Source: Pantoea coffeiphila
GTDB taxonomy: Bacteria > Pseudomonadota > Gammaproteobacteria > Enterobacterales > Enterobacteriaceae
Assembly: GCF_016909495.1 (NCBI RefSeq)
Contig: NZ_JAFBFW010000002.1
Location: 62,001 to 126,000 of the forward strand
Length of the DNA: 64,000 bases
Direction: 5' to 3'
Shown here: piece after piece, positions 4,108 to 57,575 of the stretch
Layout: each line of letters starts with the position of its first letter
Numbering within the stretch: position 1 is the first letter of the stretch
Notes under the pieces: model-generated
Told to the model about the DNA's origin: nothing
Database searches by the model: none
The model's input: the letters and a program-made list of their open reading frames with translations, nothing else
Translations under genes and position numbers: made by a program

Positions 4108-5037
4108 TTATTGTTCAAGCGCCGCTGACAGGCTGGCCTGGTCGTTTACCGCCGCCGCCGTCAGGGTGTCAACAATACGTTTAGTCAGCCCGGTTAACAC
4201 TTTACCCGGACCCACTTCCAGCAGCGACGTCACGCCCTGCTGAGCCATAAATTCTACGCAACCGGTCCAACGCACCGGGCTGTACAGCTGACGGACCAGC
4301 GCACTGCGGATAGCTTCAGGTGAAGTCTCACACTGAACATCAACGTTATTCACCACCGGGAATGCCGGTGCGTTGAAGGTCAGTTGCTCCAGCGCCACGG
4401 CCAGCTTATCAGCAGCAGGTTTCATCAGCGCACAGTGCGAAGGTACGCTCACCGGCAGCGGCAGTGCACGCTTCGCGCCCGCAGCTTTACAGGCTGCACC
4501 CGCGCGCTCAACGGCTTCTTTATTGCCGGCGATAACGACCTGGCCCGGTGAGTTATAGTTCACCGGCGAAACAACCTGCCCCTGGGCAGACTCTTCACAG
4601 GCTTTGGCGATGGACGCATCGTCCAAACCGATAATCGCCTGCATGGCCCCCGTCCCTTCCGGTACGGCTTCCTGCATCAGCTTACCGCGCAGTTCAACCA
4701 GCTTAATGGCATCGGCAAACGCAATCACTCCGGCGCAAACCAGGGCACTGTACTCACCAAGGCTGTGGCCTGCAAGCATTGACGGTACTTTTCCGCCTTT
4801 TTCCTGCCAAACGCGGAAAATGGCAACAGAAGCAGCCAGTAAAGCAGGCTGAGTTTGCCAGGTTTTGTTCAACTCTTCAGCAGGTCCCTGTTGGACCAGC
4901 TGCCATAAATCGTAACCCAGCACGTCAGAAGCTTCGCGGAAGGTTTTTTCCACAATCGGATTGCCTGCGGCTAAATCAGCCAGCATGCCCACCGTTTGCG
5001 ATCCCTGTCCCGGGAATACCATTGCAAATTGCGTCAT
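4108..5037 (-). CDS. fabD: Malonyl-CoA:ACP transacylase
   Basis: Loads malonate onto ACP. The 309-residue protein has the N-terminal FPGQGSQ signature, the nucleophile elbow GHSLGE (Ser92), the PSHCALM His, and the C-terminal EVGPGKVLTGL. Its length and sequence match E. coli FabD throughout. It sits 16 bp after fabH and 13 bp before fabG in the conserved cluster. Confidence 0.98.
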   Translation of the reverse strand: MTQFAMVFPGQGSQTVGMLADLAAGNPIVEKTFREASDVLGYDLWQLVQQGPAEELNKTWQTQPALLAASVAIFRVWQEKGGKVPSMLAGHSLGEYSALVCAGVIAFADAIKLVELRGKLMQEAVPEGTGAMQAIIGLDDASIAKACEESAQGQVVSPVNYNSPGQVVIAGNKEAVERAGAACKAAGAKRALPLPVSVPSHCALMKPAADKLAVALEQLTFNAPAFPVVNNVDVQCETSPEAIRSALVRQLYSPVRWTGCVEFMAQQGVTSLLEVGPGKVLTGLTKRIVDTLTAAAVNDQASLSAALEQ

Positions 5038-49098: not shown

Positions 49099-49184
49099 TG
49101 GTGCCCGGAGTGGGACTTGAACCCACACAGCCATAAGCCGAGGGATTTTAAATCCCTTGTGTCTACCGATTTCACCATCCGGGC
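49099..49184 (-). tRNA. leuZ: tRNA-Leu (UAA)
   Basis: 86 nt ending in encoded CCA. Acceptor arm GCCCGGA pairs with TCCGGGC; the anticodon loop reads TTTAAAA with anticodon TAA; a long variable arm (CTCGGCTTATGGCTGTG region) and GGTTCAAGTCC T-arm mark it as leucine. Third in a Gly-Cys-Leu unit, the E. coli glyW-cysT-leuZ order. Confidence 0.97.
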
Positions 49185-49197
49185 CTGGATGTAAGAT

Positions 49198-49271
49198 TGG
49201 AGGCGCGTCCCGGAGTCGAACCGAGGTAGACGGATTTGCAATCCGTAGCATGGCCACTCTGCCAACGCGCC
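49198..49271 (-). tRNA. cysT: tRNA-Cys (GCA)
   Basis: 74 nt ending in CCA. Acceptor GGCGCGT pairs with ACGCGCC; the anticodon stem-loop ACGGATTGCAAATCCGT gives GCA, and TTCGACT follows in the T arm. Middle gene of the tRNA unit. Confidence 0.97.
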
Positions 49272-49315
49272 TTTATTCTTTTTTGCCTTCAGAGAAATTC
49301 TCTGCTGACTTAAAC

Positions 49316-49391
<76 letters not shown>

Positions 49392-50184: not shown

Positions 50185-52020
50185 TTAGTGTTTCAGCGCA
50201 TAGAAGATTTTTTCGGCCAGCGCATGCGATATTCCCGGTACTTTGGCAATCTCTTCCACCGAGGCATTTATCAGCGGTTGCAGGCCCCCCATATACTTCA
50301 GCAGCATCTGGCGACGTTTCGGGCCTATGCCTTCTATCGTTTCCAGCGCGCTGGTATTTTTCACTTTCGCCCGTTTATTGCGATGACCCGTAATTGCATG
50401 ATTGTGAGAGTCATCACGAATATGCTGCAATACATGTAGCGCAGCGGAATCCGGCGGCAGAGAAAATCCCTCCCCCTCCGGTTCGAAAAACAGCGTTTCC
50501 AGCCCCGCTTTGCGATCGGTGCCTTTCGCAATACCGAGTAGCAAAGGATGCTGTTTATCCCAATTGACGTCCAGTTCAGCAAAAACGCTTTTCGCCTGCG
50601 CCAGCTGACCTTTACCGCCGTCGATCAGAATCACATCGGGGATTTTACTCTCTTCCAGATCTTTGCCATAACGGCGGCGCAGTACCTGATTCATCGCCGC
50701 GTAGTCATCCCCTGGCGTGATTCCGCTGATATTATAACGCCGGTATTCACTGCGCACCGGACCATTAGCATCAAATACGACACAGGAAGCCACAGTTTGC
50801 TCCCCCATCGTATGGCTGATGTCGAAGCACTCCATTCGATTGATTTCAGGCAGTTCCAGCACCTGAGCCAGTTCTGACAACCGTTGATGAACGGTGGAAT
50901 GCTGGGCTAAACGAGTCGCCAGCGCCGTGGCGGCATTCGTCCGGGCCAGCTTCAGATACCGCGCGCGATCGCCACGGGGCTTGCTTTGTATGCTAACCCG
51001 CCGCCCGGCAAGCTCGGTCAGGGACTCGGCCAGCAGATCTTTTTCCGGTAGCGTGAAATCAAGCAGGATATCTGACGGCAGCGTTCGGGCCTGACTACCC
51101 TGTAAGTAGAACTGCCCGACGAAGGTTTGCACCACCTCGGCCTGATCCGTTCCTGCCGGGACCTTCGGATAATAGCTGCGGCTGCCCAGCACCTTGCCCT
51201 GCCGGATAAACAGCACGTGCAGGCAGGCCAGGCCGCCATCGAAAGCAACGCCGATGACATCCATATCATCGCCCTGATTGGAAACGAACTGTTTTTCCGT
51301 TACGCGGCGCACGGCCTGGATTTGATCGCGCAGGCGTGCAGCCTCTTCAAAACGCAGCTCCATGGCGGCAGCCTCCATCCGACTGACCAGCTGGTTGAGA
51401 ACCTGATCGTCTTTGCCGGAGAGAAACAGCCGCACGTAGTTAATCTGCTGGGCGTATTCTTCTTCACTCACCAGCCCGCTTACACAGGGACCTAAACAGC
51501 GGCCAATCTGATACTGCAAACAGGGCCGCGTGCGGTTGCGGTATACGCTGTTTTCACACTGGCGAACGGGAAACACCTTTTGCAACAGCGACAGCGTTTC
51601 CCGCACCGCATAGCCATTAGGGAAAGGACCAAAGTACTCCCCTTTCGCGTGTTTGGCACCGCGATGACTGGCAAGACGCGGATGGGCATCAGCGCTGAGG
51701 AAAATATAAGGATAGGATTTATCGTCACGCAGCAGAACGTTATAGCGCGGCTGGTAGAGCTTTATATAGTTGTGTTCCAGCAGCAGGGCTTCAGTTTCCG
51801 TGTGGGTCACGGTCACATCTATCTGCTGGATCAATGCCACCAGCGCTTCCGTTTTTCGGCTGGCAAGATTATCGCGAAAATAGCTGGAGAGGCGCTTTTT
51901 CAGGTCCTTGGCTTTACCAACATAAATGACCGTTTCACTGGCGTCGTACATACGATAGACACCAGGCTGGCTGGTAACGGTTTTTAGAAAGGAACGGGCA
52001 TCAAATACCATACTACTCAC
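50185..52020 (-). CDS. uvrC: UvrABC excinuclease subunit C
   Basis: Makes both incisions in nucleotide excision repair. 611 residues: a GIY-YIG 3'-incision domain ([28 protein letters not shown] as landmark, key residues GVY and YVG), a UvrB-binding UVR segment near 204-239, the RNase H-like 5'-incision domain with [11 protein letters not shown] and LIDGGKGQL, and a C-terminal double HhH ([25 protein letters not shown]). The GTG at 52020 overlaps the uvrY stop by eight bases; an ATG at 52011 is the alternative. Confidence 0.97.
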
Positions 52021-52669
52021 TGCTGATTAACGGTTCCGAATTGAACAGACCATAGCGAATAGCCAGATGCGTTAACTCAACATCACCACTGATATTCAGC
52101 TTGCTGAACATACGATAGCGGTAGCTATTCACCGTCTTAGGGCTGAGATTCAACTGCTCGGAAATCTCAGTCACTTTCTGTCCTTTGGTGATCATTAGCA
52201 TAATCTGCAGTTCGCGTTCTGACAAACAGCTCAAAGGTGATTCTGACTGCGGTTCTATCTGGCTTAACGCCATCTGTTGCGCGATGTCAGAGGCGATGTA
52301 GCGCTGCCCGGCGTTGACGGAACGGATTGCATTGACCACTTCCTGCGGAGCCGCTCCCTTACTCAGGTAACCTGATGCACCCGCCTGCATTACCTTAGCC
52401 GGAAGCGGGCTTTCAGTATGAATGGTCAGCATAATCACTTTAGCATCCGGCGAGTAGCGCACAATTTTACGCGTAGCTTCAAGGCCACCAATGCCTGGCA
52501 TGTTCATATCCATAAGCACCACGTCAACATTGTTGCTGCGGCACCATTTCACTGCATCCTCACCACAGTTGGCTTCACCTACAACCTGGATACCTTTGAT
52601 ATCTTCCAGTATGCGACGGATCCCTGTACGCACCAGTTCGTGGTCATCGACGAGAAAAACGCTTATCAA
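52013..52669 (-). CDS. uvrY: Response regulator UvrY
   Basis: Partner of the sensor kinase BarA; activates the small RNAs that counteract CsrA. 218 residues: a receiver domain with [11 protein letters not shown] acidic pocket, phosphoacceptor Asp in [10 protein letters not shown], and a C-terminal LuxR/FixJ HTH ([25 protein letters not shown]...). Called GacA, ExpA or VarA in relatives. It is cotranscribed with uvrC. Here it lies close to a luxI-sdiA pair, placing two regulators of population and metabolic state together. Confidence 0.97.
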
Positions 52670-53193
52670 ACGGAACTCCCTAAATGGCTGAGGCAGGTGA
52701 TGATGTGCAATAACGCAGGGTCATTATTCTACTACTTTTTTTTCACTGGTAGAACATATTTAACACAGCGACTAACAATTTCGTTTCTTAAATCATAATG
52801 CAAAATAAAAAATAACGCTCATGAAAATCTCTATGGCAGAGACATTGATATTCATCGGAAAAATTGCAATAAATACTTACCAAAATAAATGAAAAATACA
52901 CAATAATCAGCAATTACATAGCATTAGATAAAACCAGTTGCGACAACTCTTCGTTAAGTAAATTCTACAGACATCCGGATATCTCTGTGAACTTAAATTA
53001 AGTTTAGTCTAAAGCGATAAGTAAGCAGGATAGCGTTACCGTTACTGCATCACGCTTTACTTCGTAAACGAGAGCGAAAACGAAGCGTGCCCGTCTGATT
53101 TTTTTTAAGCTATGTATGATATACTTTTAACAATTTTTCGCGCCCTGCCCTGTGGCTCAGGAGCATGTTTTTTATCATTTATCAGGAGAGATC
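52670..53193. other. Divergent intergenic region uvrY/yecF
   Basis: 524 bp, AT-rich, no supported gene. TATGATATACTTT near 53113-53125 offers -10-like elements for yecF. The stretch beside uvrY has several A/T tracts. In E. coli this gap also carries uvrY promoter elements responding to SdiA; no convincing lux box was found here by eye. Confidence 0.55.
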
Positions 53194-53418
53194 ATGAGTC
53201 AGATTGACTTTTCAACCAGTGAAGACGTTAAAGCATTAGCTAACGAAGTCACCTGCATGAAGGCGTTGGTTACGCTGATGTTGAAATCGATTGGTCAGGC
53301 CGACGCAGGCAAAGTGATCATCAATATGGAGCGCTACATTGCGGGTCTGGAAGATGAGCAGCAGGCTGAAGTGTTCAGCAACACCGTAAAACAAATCAAA
53401 CACGCCTTCCGTCAGTAA
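53194..53418 (+). CDS. yecF: YecF family protein (DUF2594)
   Basis: 74-residue helical protein of unknown function, [19 protein letters not shown], with the conserved [18 protein letters not shown] and [10 protein letters not shown] end seen in E. coli YecF. AGGAGAG precedes the ATG at 53194. It lies between uvrY and the sdiA region, as in E. coli, where it separates uvrY from sdiA. A GC-rich inverted repeat follows at about 53426-53463, without a T-run. Confidence 0.93.
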
Positions 53419-53558
53419 CCAGACAGGGGCCGGCAGCAGGGCTCTCGATCCCGCTGTCGGCCTCGAGCGTGCCTAATTTTCCCTGACGATGCCGCCCTTC
53501 TGCATCATCTGATAAGCGTCAGCCTCAGAAGAATAAACAATAACCAGTTGATGAAATA

Positions 53559-53897
53559 ATGGCCTTACTTATTAAAGCGATACTTGGTGCAGTCGTTGTG
53601 TTACTCATCGGCATCCTTGCGAAAACACGTAATTACTATCTTGCCGGCTTGATCCCCCTGTTTCCCACTTTTGCGCTGATTGCACACTATATCGTCGCAA
53701 GCGAGCGTGGGGTCGAGGCGCTGCGCGCAACCATTCTGTTTGGCATGTGGGCAATCATTCCCTATTTCGTTTATCTGTTATCGCTGTGGTATTTCATCAA
53801 TATGATGCGATTGGTGCCTGCACTGATGGCCGCGGTAGCCTGCTGGTCCGCGGCGGCATGGCTATTGATAACGCTGTGGTCGAAATGGCAGGCCTAG
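53559..53897 (+). CDS. ydgC: GlpM family inner-membrane protein YdgC
   Basis: 112 residues, about four helices (ILGAVVVLLIGILA, YYLAGLIPLFPTFALIAHYIV, FGMWAIIPYFVYLLSLWYF, a C-terminal helix). It is nearly identical along its length to E. coli YdgC, a member of the GlpM family named for a Pseudomonas protein affecting alginate. In E. coli ydgC lies elsewhere. Here it stands between yecF and luxI, and its stop overlaps the convergent luxI end by four bases. Confidence 0.9.
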   Translation: MALLIKAILGAVVVLLIGILAKTRNYYLAGLIPLFPTFALIAHYIVASERGVEALRATILFGMWAIIPYFVYLLSLWYFINMMRLVPALMAAVACWSAAAWLLITLWSKWQA

Positions 53898-54517
53898 CGC
53901 CCGCGCATACCCCAGCTGATTGAAACGCCCAGAGAAGGCAGGACCTCTTCAGGCTTGAAGCGTCTTGAACCATGAAAACGCCTGGCCAGATGAGGCTGGG
54001 ATATCGGTATTCTTACAGCAAAGAGATTATCTTCTGACTGAATGACGCCCGGCGGCAATTGCAGATAGTTAACCTGATACTGACCGAACATGTTTTCCAG
54101 CATTGGTGTCGCGGCGCTGAATAAATTGCTGATTCCGGACTGTTCAGCGAGCTGAAGCGCGTGCCATAAGATATTTAATGGCAGCTCACTGTCTATTTCC
54201 AGGCGCGCTGAAAAACGGGACATTTCCCAAATTTGTCCACCGTCGAGGCTTTCCCGATCGGCGTCAGAAAGTTCGCTATTTTGCGGACACTGCCATTTCA
54301 TCAGCCGGGCACAGCCGCAAATGCCGTGCTGTGCATGCCAGGCGATCAGCCAGCAGACATCGGAACGATCAAAGCGATCGTACTCCTGGCCTGGGGTGCT
54401 GAGCCGAGAAGGAATTGACCAACCTTCTTCTCTGGCAAACACGCTGTAACGATAGCTTCCCAATTCGGCCAGCAACGAGGAAGGCATATCCTTCAGTTTG
54501 GTCTGGATAATTTTCAT
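53894..54517 (-). CDS. Acyl-homoserine-lactone synthase (LuxI family)
   Basis: Makes an N-acyl-homoserine lactone from S-adenosylmethionine and acyl-ACP. 207 residues with every invariant residue of the family: Arg23 and Phe27 in SYRYSVFARE, Trp33, Asp47 and Asp50 in EYDRFDRSD, Arg71 in CARLMKW, Glu98 and Arg101 in WEMSRFSA. GGGGA is placed well before the ATG. It lies directly downstream of sdiA on the same strand; Erwinia and Pantoea PhzI/ExpI proteins are known as cognate partners of SdiA-type receptors. The acyl chain cannot be read from the sequence. Confidence 0.95.
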   Translation of the reverse strand: MKIIQTKLKDMPSSLLAELGSYRYSVFAREEGWSIPSRLSTPGQEYDRFDRSDVCWLIAWHAQHGICGCARLMKWQCPQNSELSDADRESLDGGQIWEMSRFSARLEIDSELPLNILWHALQLAEQSGISNLFSAATPMLENMFGQYQVNYLQLPPGVIQSEDNLFAVRIPISQPHLARRFHGSRRFKPEEVLPSLGVSISWGMRGR

Positions 54518-54571
54518 TTATAAATCCCCGTCGCACTCCCGCACGAAAACCACCCCGGGCGGGACGCGCAG

Positions 54572-54601
54572 GGTTGTTACCCTTGCGAAGGGTAGACAAC
54601 C
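54572..54601 (-). promoter_or_regulatory. Strong stem-loop in the luxI leader
   Basis: GGTTGT and ACAACC pair, then one bulged base, then TACCCTT and AAGGGTA around a three-base GCG loop: 13 bp over 30 nt. No T-run follows on the minus strand, so it is not a typical terminator of sdiA. It is 55 bases upstream of the luxI start, in the expected transcript leader. Confidence 0.75.
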
Positions 54602-54615
54602 AATTAGTAATACGA

Positions 54616-54635
54616 AACTACCAAAATTAGTAGTT
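54616..54635 (-). promoter_or_regulatory. lux-box-like palindrome upstream of luxI
   Basis: AACTACCAAAATTAGTAGTT is a 20-bp imperfect palindrome fitting the CT-N12-AG pattern of LuxR-type sites. It lies 98 bp before the luxI start and just after the sdiA stop. Binding by SdiA is inferred. Confidence 0.65.
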
Positions 54636-54645
54636 GCGTTGTTTT

Positions 54646-55371
54646 TCAGATCAAACCGATTGCAGCTGCGTAAGAGGCAATTTGCGTCTTGTTTGGCGCA
54701 TTTAATCGTTTTTGCATGTTTTTCTGATGAAAATTAACCGTGTGCTGAGAAATAGAGAGTATCAGCGATATTTCAGCAGACGTTTTTCCTTCCGCCGTCC
54801 ATTTAAGGATTTCGCGCTCGCGATCGCTTAATTCCAGTTTCACAGAGACCATGGAAATATCTTCAAGCCGGCTGAGCGTCGCCAGCGACAGTTCCACCAT
54901 ATACTGGAGTTTAAGTTGTAACTCGGTGGTTAACTTTACATTATTTAACGGATCTGATGAGGCGAATGATAATATCCCCGTTGCTCTGTTTTGCGCGATG
55001 GCTGAGATTGAGATACCGTGATAAATCCCATGCCGCCTTGCCGCTCGCATCATGACAACCCCTTCGCCTGCGCTCTCATCGTCCCACACCCACAGACTTC
55101 CCGGGAGATGACAATTCTGCAGGATAGGGTCCACAGGGGAATAGTTTTCCCGAAAATAAGAATTTATCCATTCATCGGGTAAATTGCAGTAATAGAAGGT
55201 CTTAGGCCGAGTAAATGGCACAGGGTGCTTGATGAAAAGCACATAAAAATCGAACCCAAGACGCTTTGCCTGTTGCTCAATTAACAGAGTTACCTGTTCA
55301 ACCTCAGTTTTTTTACTGAATGCTAATTGAACTTCGTCTCGCCAGCTGAAATAAGTGTCAGCAGTCATCAA
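54646..55371 (-). CDS. sdiA: LuxR-family AHL receptor SdiA
   Basis: Quorum-sensing transcription factor of 241 residues. The N-terminal autoinducer-binding domain matches E. coli SdiA (TYFSWRDEV, HPVPFTRPKTFYY, DPILQ), and the C-terminal HTH is nearly the same: LSDREREILKWTAEGKTSAE and NFHQKNMQKRLNAPNKTQ. Ligand-pocket Trp68, Tyr72, Asp81 and Trp96 are kept, but the Tyr63 of E. coli aligns with Leu64. Order uvrY-yecF-sdiA is as in E. coli, where sdiA has no luxI; here one is present. Confidence 0.95.
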   Translation of the reverse strand: MMTADTYFSWRDEVQLAFSKKTEVEQVTLLIEQQAKRLGFDFYVLFIKHPVPFTRPKTFYYCNLPDEWINSYFRENYSPVDPILQNCHLPGSLWVWDDESAGEGVVMMRAARRHGIYHGISISAIAQNRATGILSFASSDPLNNVKLTTELQLKLQYMVELSLATLSRLEDISMVSVKLELSDREREILKWTAEGKTSAEISLILSISQHTVNFHQKNMQKRLNAPNKTQIASYAAAIGLI

Positions 55372-56180
55372 TTCCCCAACGGAACGTAAGGGAACCCACT
55401 CGCGGTGATTCTGGTTTTCATTGTAAATATTGCTGTGTAATTAGACATTAAATGTGACCAGATAAATGATTATTGTAATAATGTTTTCGTGAGTAAATTA
55501 CAGGATCGTTCTCTAATTCTTATTAAGTGTAGCTATTTTTTCACCGAAACAAGCCTAACTTTTATCCAACCCATCACAATACCGTATGTTATTATCACCT
55601 CAATGCTCGGATTTCCCACTCTGCATCGATCATTAAGCCTCAGATAACACTAGCATCATAGGATTTATCCTATCAGCATACAGCAACTTTGCGCTTTTTT
55701 CCCCCTGATCTGCATGTTGTCATACCCAGACAGGTATCACAGTCAGATCAAAACCCTGAAAAACGAATAAACCAATGATTTTAATATAATTATTTAATCT
55801 AGCGCATGCCATAAAATCGCCACAAATGTTCAAAAAAACGCAGTTCATGACCTGTTCATACACTTTCTTTCTGAAGTCCCTCATCTGAAATCCAATCCTG
55901 TCTCCTTTAGGATGGCGACTTTTTAAGCAGATAATCCCCGTTTAGCGCAATGTCGTTGTTTTTTATACTTTATCATTCTGATTTTGCGTTAAGCTCCTCT
56001 TCCTGTGGTGTCAACCGGAATCATTCGCTTCGATCGCCATCACTATTACCGAAAAGAATTACCCGTTTAAAGCGTTATTACACTATCTTATGCCAGCTAA
56101 TCATGGCAGGACCGAATGAAATAAAAGCCATCAGAGCTTTAACTCATTTACACAGGACAGAACACGACAGGAGAACCTTA
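55372..56180. other. Long AT-rich region between sdiA and cycA
   Basis: 809 bp, the longest gene-free stretch here. It must carry the divergent promoters of sdiA and cycA and probably a long cycA leader; in E. coli cycA mRNA is a target of the small RNA GcvB. ATACC-CAGACA-GGTAT at 55722-55737 is a short inverted repeat. A frame open from 55950 into cycA lacks similarity before 56181. Confidence 0.55.
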
Positions 56181-57575
56181 ATGGTTGATCAATCAAAAGA
56201 GGCAACGCTTTCAGAGGAAGGCCCGGACACGCTACGGCGTAACCTGCACAATCGGCATATCCAGCTTATCGCCATCGGTGGGGCCATCGGTACCGGGCTG
56301 TTCATGGGATCGGGAAAAACAATCAGCCTGGCCGGGCCTTCGATCATCTTCGTCTACATGATCATCGGCTTTATGCTGTTTTTCGTCATGCGAGCCATGG
56401 GTGAGCTGCTGCTCTCCAATCTTGAATACAAATCCTTCAGCGATTTTGCGGCGGACCTGCTTGGCCCGTGGGCCGGCTATTTTACCGGCTGGACCTACTG
56501 GTTCTGCTGGGTCGTTACCGGTATTGCCGACGTGGTGGCCATCAGTTCGTACTTCCAGCTGTGGTTCCCTGACTTCTCTATCTGGATGAGTGCCCTGCTG
56601 TGTATCGTGGTGTTCTTATCGCTCAACGTCGCCACCGTTAAGCTGTTTGGTGAGATGGAGTTCTGGTTCGCCATTATTAAAATCGTCGCCATCGTAGCGC
56701 TGATTGCCACCGGTATTGTACTGGTTGCCATGCACTATCCTTCGCCGGGCGGCGGTACTGCCTCCTTAAGCAACATCTGGGATCACGGCGGTATGTTCCC
56801 GAAAGGGCTGAGCGGATTCTTTGCCGGCTTCCAGATTGCCGTATTCGCCTTCGTCGGTATCGAGCTGGTGGGCACCGCAGCAGCGGAAACTCACGATCCC
56901 AAAAAAGTGCTGCCGCGCGCGATTAACGCCATTCCCCTGCGTATCATCATGTTCTACGTGCTGGCGCTGATGGTGATTATGGCCGTGACGCCGTGGAATC
57001 AGGTTGTCGCCGACCGCAGCCCGTTTGTTGAAATGTTTGTGCTGATTGGTCTGCCGGCCGCGGCAAGTATCGTTAACTTCGTGGTGCTGACCTCGGCGGC
57101 ATCCTCCGCCAACAGCGGTATCTTCTCCACCAGCCGTATGCTGTACGGCCTGTCACAGCAGGGCGTGGCGCATCGTCGTTTTGGTGTGCTTTCAAGCCGT
57201 GCAGTGCCAACAACCGGCCTGTTCTTCTCCTGCTTCTGCCTGCTGGGCGGCGTGGCGCTGATTTATCTGATCCCGAACGTCATGACGGTGTTTACCCTGG
57301 TCACCACGGTCTCCGCCATCCTGTTTATGTTCGTCTGGACGATTATTCTGTGCTCGTACCTCGCCTACCGCAAAAAGCATCCGCAGCGCCATGCGGAGTC
57401 GAGCTATAAAATGCCGCTGGGCAAATTTATGTGCTGGGTATGCATGGCCTTCTTCGCCTTCGTACTGGTGCTGTTAACGCTGGAAGAAGATACTCGCCAG
57501 GCGTTGATGGTCACGCCGCTGTGGTTCCTGATGCTGGCCGTGGGCTGGTTCCTGCGTAGCCGCAAAAAAGCCTAA
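56181..57575 (+). CDS. cycA: D-serine/D-alanine/glycine permease
   Basis: Proton-coupled amino acid transporter of the APC family, 464 residues, 12 helices. The first helices carry QLIAIGGAIGTGLFMGSGK, and the long block from there to SNLEYKSFSDFAADLLGPWAGYF is nearly identical to E. coli CycA (landmarks SAASSANSG and YKMPLGK also match). I set the start at MVDQSKEATL with AGGAGA upstream, not at the longer open frame from 55950. In E. coli cycA is far from sdiA and rut, so this neighbourhood is rearranged. Confidence 0.95.
   Translation: MVDQSKEATLSEEGPDTLRRNLHNRHIQLIAIGGAIGTGLFMGSGKTISLAGPSIIFVYMIIGFMLFFVMRAMGELLLSNLEYKSFSDFAADLLGPWAGYFTGWTYWFCWVVTGIADVVAISSYFQLWFPDFSIWMSALLCIVVFLSLNVATVKLFGEMEFWFAIIKIVAIVALIATGIVLVAMHYPSPGGGTASLSNIWDHGGMFPKGLSGFFAGFQIAVFAFVGIELVGTAAAETHDPKKVLPRAINAIPLRIIMFYVLALMVIMAVTPWNQVVADRSPFVEMFVLIGLPAAASIVNFVVLTSAASSANSGIFSTSRMLYGLSQQGVAHRRFGVLSSRAVPTTGLFFSCFCLLGGVALIYLIPNVMTVFTLVTTVSAILFMFVWTIILCSYLAYRKKHPQRHAESSYKMPLGKFMCWVCMAFFAFVLVLLTLEEDTRQALMVTPLWFLMLAVGWFLRSRKKA

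Follow-up and report, generated by a model that had tools for sequence, protein, structure and literature searches.

A conserved sdiA-luxI pair in Pantoea coffeiphila with a divergent LuxI and a probable autoinduction loop

In the 64,000-nucleotide stretch of the Pantoea coffeiphila genome analysed here (contig NZ_JAFBFW010000002.1, positions 62,001 to 126,000; hereafter the window), the gene for the receptor SdiA is directly followed, on the same strand, by a gene for a LuxI-type enzyme. The locus is real and conserved, has a known arrangement and is probably a working SdiA-LuxI loop. For Erwinia and Pantoea, a luxI gene next to sdiA in the neighborhood of sirA was described by Sabag-Daigle and Ahmer (2012; PMC3474713), who proposed that SdiA has lost its partner elsewhere and that this LuxI represents it, a proposal repeated in the available part of a 2025 review (PMC12086679). 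The gene arrangement is therefore already known, and the window locus is a further case of it. An autoinduction loop is the best reading of the pair: SdiA would bind a 20-bp lux box at 54616-54635 and switch on luxI, and the luxI product would in turn activate SdiA, so that the loop would reinforce itself. On balance, we favor a fuller account in which the pair is ancestral to Erwinia and Pantoea, forms such a loop, and contains a remodeled LuxI whose signal is probably not an ordinary one.

The pair and its control region

The luxI gene (53894-54517, minus strand) encodes an sdiA-linked enzyme of LuxI fold, 207 amino acids long, which has orthologs and belongs to the clade named ExpI/PhzI in PMC3474713. 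The sdiA gene (54646-55368, minus strand) encodes an SdiA ortholog of 240 amino acids when read from the ATG at 55368, which is immediately preceded by a TTG at 55371, and its product matches the NF007561 model at 270.8 bits (E 8.9e-81). Both open reading frames (ORFs) are present at the place and on the strand originally predicted for them, with a gap of 128 bases between them.

Between the two genes, 98 bp ahead of the luxI start codon, lies a palindromic 20-bp lux box, AACTACTAATTTTGGTAGTT (54616-54635, minus strand), a predicted SdiA site that is unique in the window and appeared in none of 100 shuffles. Scored against a consensus, the box reaches 14 or more of 20 matches in 62 of 64 sdiA-luxI gaps, located 91-100 bp before luxI, compared with 0.5% of shuffled gaps; the gaps below this threshold are those of loci L091 (9 matches) and L084 (13). 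The consensus was derived from the same 64 gaps that were scored, and two independent checks, the genome-wide pattern and the loci lacking sdiA, therefore matter more. Searched with at most one mismatch, the box pattern was found in 33 of 37 Erwinia genomes, and in 30 of these 33 it occurs nowhere but in the sdiA-luxI gap; with the pattern reversed as a control, there were 0-2 matches per strand and genome. A wider SdiA regulon was not seen at this stringency, which weaker boxes would escape. Every one of the 33 Erwinia genomes with a full-length sdiA has the box; 32 of them match the pattern, and G017 scores 17/20. The box is absent from all four fetched luxI loci in which sdiA was not found (L078, L093, L150 and L152). 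At L051, where only a remnant of sdiA is left, the box is decayed and one-armed, and at L157, where sdiA is broken, it still scores 17/20. Presence in 62/64 versus 0/4 loci gives a Fisher p of 1.8e-5, with the relatedness of the loci uncorrected.

Further elements may lie between the box and the luxI start. The element TTGTCTACCCT (54589-54599, minus strand), 16 bp after the box, might contain the -10 region of luxI (TACCCT). It is also an arm of an inverted repeat, about GTTGTCTACCCTTCGCAAGGGTAACAAC (54573-54600, minus strand), which could act as a leader hairpin or attenuator. By eye, most of the 11 sdiA-luxI gaps displayed contain TTGTCTACCCT, either unchanged or with slight variation. A sigma-70 scan did not return this element, and a terminator scan did not return the inverted repeat.

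Descent, distribution and maintenance

In a tree of 47 SdiA rows, the SdiA clade was supported at 100/99, RhlR adjoined it at 94/88, and 21 linked rows formed one clade (100/100). In a tree of 42 LuxI rows, 25 linked rows including that of the window formed one clade (100/100), the stem of which measures 2.18 changes per column; the fork between RhlI and PhzI stood at 87/90, with a bootstrap that had not settled. The window LuxI is thus placed inside the ExpI/PhzI clade and its receptor inside SdiA. Such a placement upholds the model of descent that the original prediction had taken up, in which PhzI/ExpI synthases descend from the synthase that SdiA lost: the receptor falls in the SdiA clade and the synthase in a single linked clade of Erwinia and Pantoea. 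The ExpR/ExpI systems of Erwinia and the PhzR/PhzI systems of Pantoea (PMC3474713) have the same pair, order, neighborhood and LuxI clade as the window, and the LuxI (P0108) of the E. pyrifoliae pair EPYR_02386/02385, described in the accessible portion of PMC2827408, is a member of the same clade. These systems belong to other species, and the window SdiA differs from theirs by a changed pocket (Leu63, Ala100, Met107).

In the Pseudomonas-type family (198 genomes), the best profile score outside the linked clade was that of RhlI (113.4 bits), followed by the PhzI-like L178 (92.4 bits); among 349 genomes drawn from the phylum and 274 from the class, no better match lay outside the clade. The RhlR beside this RhlI is, in the region compared, identical to the chain from P. 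aeruginosa. The RhlI/RhlR system of Pseudomonas aeruginosa also resembles the window pair in the position of RhlR beside the SdiA clade and in having its luxI preceded by a regulator on the same strand. However, the LuxIs are 29% identical and the receptors 38%, and RhlI carries Glu29 and a VFP-motif Phe, neither of which is found in the window LuxI. In seven of eight linked systems, LuxI identity to RhlI is lower than the receptor identity, and in the eighth the two are equal. Of nine other canonical systems (the RhlI-like L180 being left out), by contrast, eight have a LuxI identity to RhlI at or above that of LuxR. Within the eight linked systems, LuxI is the more conserved protein in 28/28 pairs, with identities of 60-93% versus 44-90% for SdiA. 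The linked synthase appears, from its sequence record, to have changed first and then frozen.

Loci with a linked LuxI were collected from named genomes by a scan with two peptide patterns, which is not a census. Of the 66 loci found, 63 have sdiA directly upstream, and it is missing at L051, L078 and L093. Among the 37 Erwinia genomes, a linked luxI is open in 36 and a full-length SdiA is encoded in 33; luxI occurs without an intact sdiA in G008, G016 and G035, sdiA without luxI in none, and G031 has neither. A recent horizontal arrival of luxI into Erwinia is not supported, given its presence in 36/37 genomes and the single clade formed by the linked SdiAs and by the linked LuxIs, each in its own tree. 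In a draw of 392 family genomes, 20 have LuxI and 124 have SdiA, the latter counted at E up to 1e-45; 16 genomes have both, four LuxI only and 108 SdiA only. On the Enterobacteriaceae side, therefore, the synthase was lost and the receptor stayed, and some Erwinia relatives did the reverse. Loci of this reverse type, with a linked luxI retained and sdiA missing or a remnant, are L051, L078, L093, L150 and L152. The solo SdiA of E. coli and Salmonella shares with the window SdiA its clade and its place beside yecF and uvrY; it differs in that no luxI was found in the 38 solo sdiA loci searched, and in the pocket position 132 described below.

Selection on the pair was estimated as the ratio of nonsynonymous to synonymous substitution rates (dN/dS). 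Relative to Erwinia sp. JUb26, dN/dS is 0.043 for luxI, 0.082 for sdiA and 0.017 for uvrY, and for luxI it is 0.043-0.057 relative to the two nearest loci. The closest named LuxI orthologs are those of Erwinia sp. JUb26 (93% identity) and Erwinia sp. SLM-02 (87%), and by these matches the host groups with Erwinia. The luxI gene is under purifying selection and is better conserved than sdiA. Because dN/dS relative to JUb26 is low, both are maintained genes, and chance ORFs are ruled out by these ratios together with the orthologs. A luxI pseudogene is ruled out as well, since none of the 67 linked LuxIs is interrupted by a stop codon. In three pairs of L051, L078 or L093 with a relative, luxI dN/dS is 0.10-0.14, and it is 0.12 between L051 and L078. 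It has to be considered that the pair might be a relic under relaxed selection, heading for loss as in E. coli, with sdiA broken or missing in 4/37 Erwinia genomes, a dN/dS of sdiA above that of luxI and several changed pocket residues in the window SdiA. This reading is very improbable and largely refuted by the rates relative to JUb26, and it also conflicts with a luxI that is open in all but one of the Erwinia genomes and free of stops throughout the linked set.

The linked LuxI and its putative signal

The window LuxI had been described as an intact AHL (N-acyl-homoserine lactone) synthase with all invariant residues. Eight residues that we take to be the classical LuxI invariants (R23, F27, W33, D47, D50, R71, E98 and R101) are indeed all kept in the window, and they are kept in nearly all of the 67 linked LuxIs. 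Other positions are replaced. Residue 29 is acidic (E or D) in 44/44 other LuxIs versus Arg in 65/67 linked ones; the same 44 invariably have Tyr56 and, in a VFP motif, a Phe, and no linked LuxI (0/67) has Phe in the latter column. The window LuxI, with Arg29 and Trp56, has none of the three residues. Its LuxI fold is recognizable, with TofI as the best structure match, and it belongs to the LuxI family PF00765 by a borderline match (24.9 bits against a curated cut-off of 24) that covers residues 14-103 only. In CepI, residue 29 is essential and an E29Q mutant is inactive, according to the available part of PMC6079302; the charge at this residue is reversed in the window LuxI. A literature search, in which subscription papers were thinly covered, found no earlier report of the residue-29 change. 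In three fire-blight-type Erwinia, L167 (G002), L184 (G018) and L166 (G015), common changes are found at linked-LuxI residues 51, 56, 69 and 75, with an intact box of 19/20.

The linked LuxI retains the LuxI fold and its classical core of catalytic residues but has lost residues common to the other LuxIs compared. Because of this loss, its signal is probably not an ordinary short-chain AHL seen by standard biosensors, or else its amounts or the conditions caused it to be missed. Published data point in the same direction. The E. pyrifoliae genome paper (2010) noted, in the part available, a low identity of LuxI to known synthases, reported that two AHL biosensors stayed silent and postulated a signal not yet known (PMC2827408). 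The only LuxI of E. pyrifoliae is of the linked type, itself divergent; the box is present, and PF00765 is not matched. To the suggestion of an unrelated signal in that paper, the present analysis adds the pattern of residue changes, the lux box and the pattern of loss. The product oxoC6 has been ascribed to ExpI and PhzI with reference to Venturi 2004 and Morohoshi 2007 (PMC3474713), but the Morohoshi result is credited instead to EanI, an EsaI homolog, in the accessible text of PMC7883899, where an eanI deletion of P. ananatis PA13 is also reported to give no quorum-sensing signal on CV026. Similarly, a P. stewartii esaI deletion strain was unable to make N-(3-oxohexanoyl)-homoserine lactone (PMC12459020, partial text). 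A linked luxI is present in P. ananatis LMG 2665 (L056) and in a P. stewartii genome (L070). With residue 29, Tyr56 and the VFP Phe replaced and with E. pyrifoliae and the P. ananatis eanI deletion biosensor-negative in these partly available sources, the label of intact AHL synthase is weakly supported. Until its product is demonstrated, the window LuxI is better not termed an ordinary, intact AHL synthase.

C6 and 3-oxo-C6 are produced by Pantoea sp. 1.19, whose pair, yspI/yspR, is a different one, and P. ananatis biofilm needs both eanI/R and rhlI/R, although rhlI may not be the linked gene (both from the available part of PMC5532839). A P. eucalypti phzI::Tn5 mutant loses symplasmata and can be complemented (PMC4989142, available part); this phzI, too, may not be the linked gene. 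Weighing against a non-ordinary signal, AHLs have been reported in some E. amylovora isolates, whereas others found none (PMC7912708, as far as the text is available). Such reports would fit a linked LuxI that is an ordinary, divergent AHL synthase, producing a short-chain AHL such as 3-oxo-C6 at a low level or under untried conditions. This explanation, which we consider rather unlikely, also draws on the eight classical residues, on the TofI match and on W67, D80, W95 and S134, each of which is retained in 63 or all 64 of the linked SdiAs. Moreover, a hydroxyl residue (Ser134 in 64/67 linked LuxIs, Thr in one) occupies the place equivalent to that of EsaI T140 and LasI T142, which bind 3-oxo groups (PMC8188788, available part). 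It is opposed by Arg29 and the loss of Tyr56 and the VFP Phe, by the biosensor results for E. pyrifoliae and the P. ananatis eanI deletion and by the long LuxI stem branch.

The genome to which the window belongs encodes a second LuxI, an EsaI ortholog (L001, G000:C3:608416-609616; 341 bits to EsaI) that is convergent with a LuxR-type gene, and AHLs in culture of this strain would therefore say nothing about the sdiA-luxI pair. EsaI/EanI-type AHL synthases are members of the LuxI family and often share a genome with the linked type; they differ from it in being encoded by a separate gene elsewhere and in their residue 29, which is Asp in 28/28 canonical LuxIs of Erwinia. The linked LuxI might no longer make a diffusible signal and serve as a LuxI-fold acyltransferase with an internal role, with SdiA mainly sensing the EsaI-type AHL of the same genome. 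Consistent with this improbable arrangement, luxI persists without intact sdiA in three of the 37 Erwinia genomes and at L150 and L152, and all 22 sequences of set A1 match an exosortase-associated acyltransferase model, albeit weakly (32.7 bits for the window, cut-off 111.95). However, the box in the luxI promoter ties expression to SdiA and is gone where sdiA is gone, and several Erwinia genomes (e.g. G002, G018 and G019) have no canonical LuxI by PF00765 search, yet keep sdiA and the linked luxI.

The receptor, its surroundings and the native ligand

The window SdiA aligns over its full length with E. coli SdiA (4y13, E 2.5e-68), and the helix-turn-helix is nearly identical, in agreement with the original prediction. 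Neither the window SdiA nor that of any of the 37 Erwinia genomes (0/37) reaches the NF007561 equivalog cut-off of 350 bits, which indicates that this model was drawn round the solo type. Of the residues Y63, W67, D80, W95 and S134, presumably the AHL contacts of E. coli SdiA, four are kept in the window and Y63 is replaced by Leu. Predicted as Leu64, this residue takes the E. coli number 63 when counted from the ATG at 55368; the replacement is real, but among 64 linked SdiAs Leu63 is confined to the window and JUb26. Tyr63 is kept in 57 of the 64, W67 in 63, D80 in 64, W95 in 64 and S134 in 63, and Leu at this position is thus ruled out as a mark of linked SdiAs. Further residues of the window SdiA are Val43, Tyr59, Ala100, Met107 and Ile115; we take positions 43, 59, 63, 100, 107, 115 and 132 to line the ligand pocket. 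At position 132 (E. coli numbering), Ile is found in 63/64 linked SdiAs versus Phe or Tyr in 37/37 solo ones. Two divergent solo SdiAs without luxI, L148 and L149 (G145 and G251, one genus; 292 and 272 bits to NF007561), fall within the SdiA clade on a branch of their own (100/100). In the P. stewartii locus L070, sdiA (4156-4824) encodes 222 amino acids with an altered C-terminal end, and luxI is open.

The pair is flanked by uvrY, yecF and glpM on one side and by a permease gene on the other. The sirA/gacA ortholog uvrY (52013-52669, minus strand; NF007018 442.9 bits, cut-off 280) is the published marker gene that defines the place of sdiA (PMC3474713), and the window SdiA has this place beside uvrY/sirA. 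The yecF gene (DUF2594 family; 53194-53418, plus strand) was delimited by NF007904 and PF10769 matches starting at residue 15 of a longer ORF. Between yecF and luxI lies glpM (53559-53897, plus strand; PF06942, E 5.2e-49), which is convergent with luxI, the stop codons overlapping. A cycA-type D-serine/D-alanine/glycine transporter gene (55950-57575, plus strand; NF008272 879 bits, residues 78-540) is divergent from sdiA. The E. coli uvrY-yecF-sdiA context that had been claimed is therefore recovered in part: uvrY, yecF and uvrC adjoin, but glpM is interposed and the permease gene, not yecC, is upstream of sdiA. No Rfam match was obtained within 52000-56200, and no plasmid record covered 80% of a 10-kb query of the region. 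Genes for tRNA-Leu, tRNA-Cys and tRNA-Gly are located at 49099-49391 (minus strand), near pgsA.

For the favored account of an autoinduction loop with a remodeled LuxI, a more specific history can be put forward tentatively. After an rhl-type pair entered the ancestor, the synthase may have been rebuilt at the S-adenosylmethionine-side helix and loop and then frozen, so that it would now make a different acyl signal, from another acyl donor or amine. In Erwinia and Pantoea, this molecule would be the native SdiA ligand; the broad response to AHLs shown by the solo SdiA of E. coli and Salmonella would be later or secondary. To our knowledge, E. coli and Salmonella make no AHL, and the native ligand of SdiA in these bacteria is a standing question, to which the linked Erwinia/Pantoea synthase provides a direct route. 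The common claim that the linked synthase makes 3-oxo-C6-homoserine lactone (PMC3474713) cites work that is credited elsewhere to EanI (PMC7883899, available part). If the linked LuxI makes something else, SdiA reporter screens would have used the wrong molecules.
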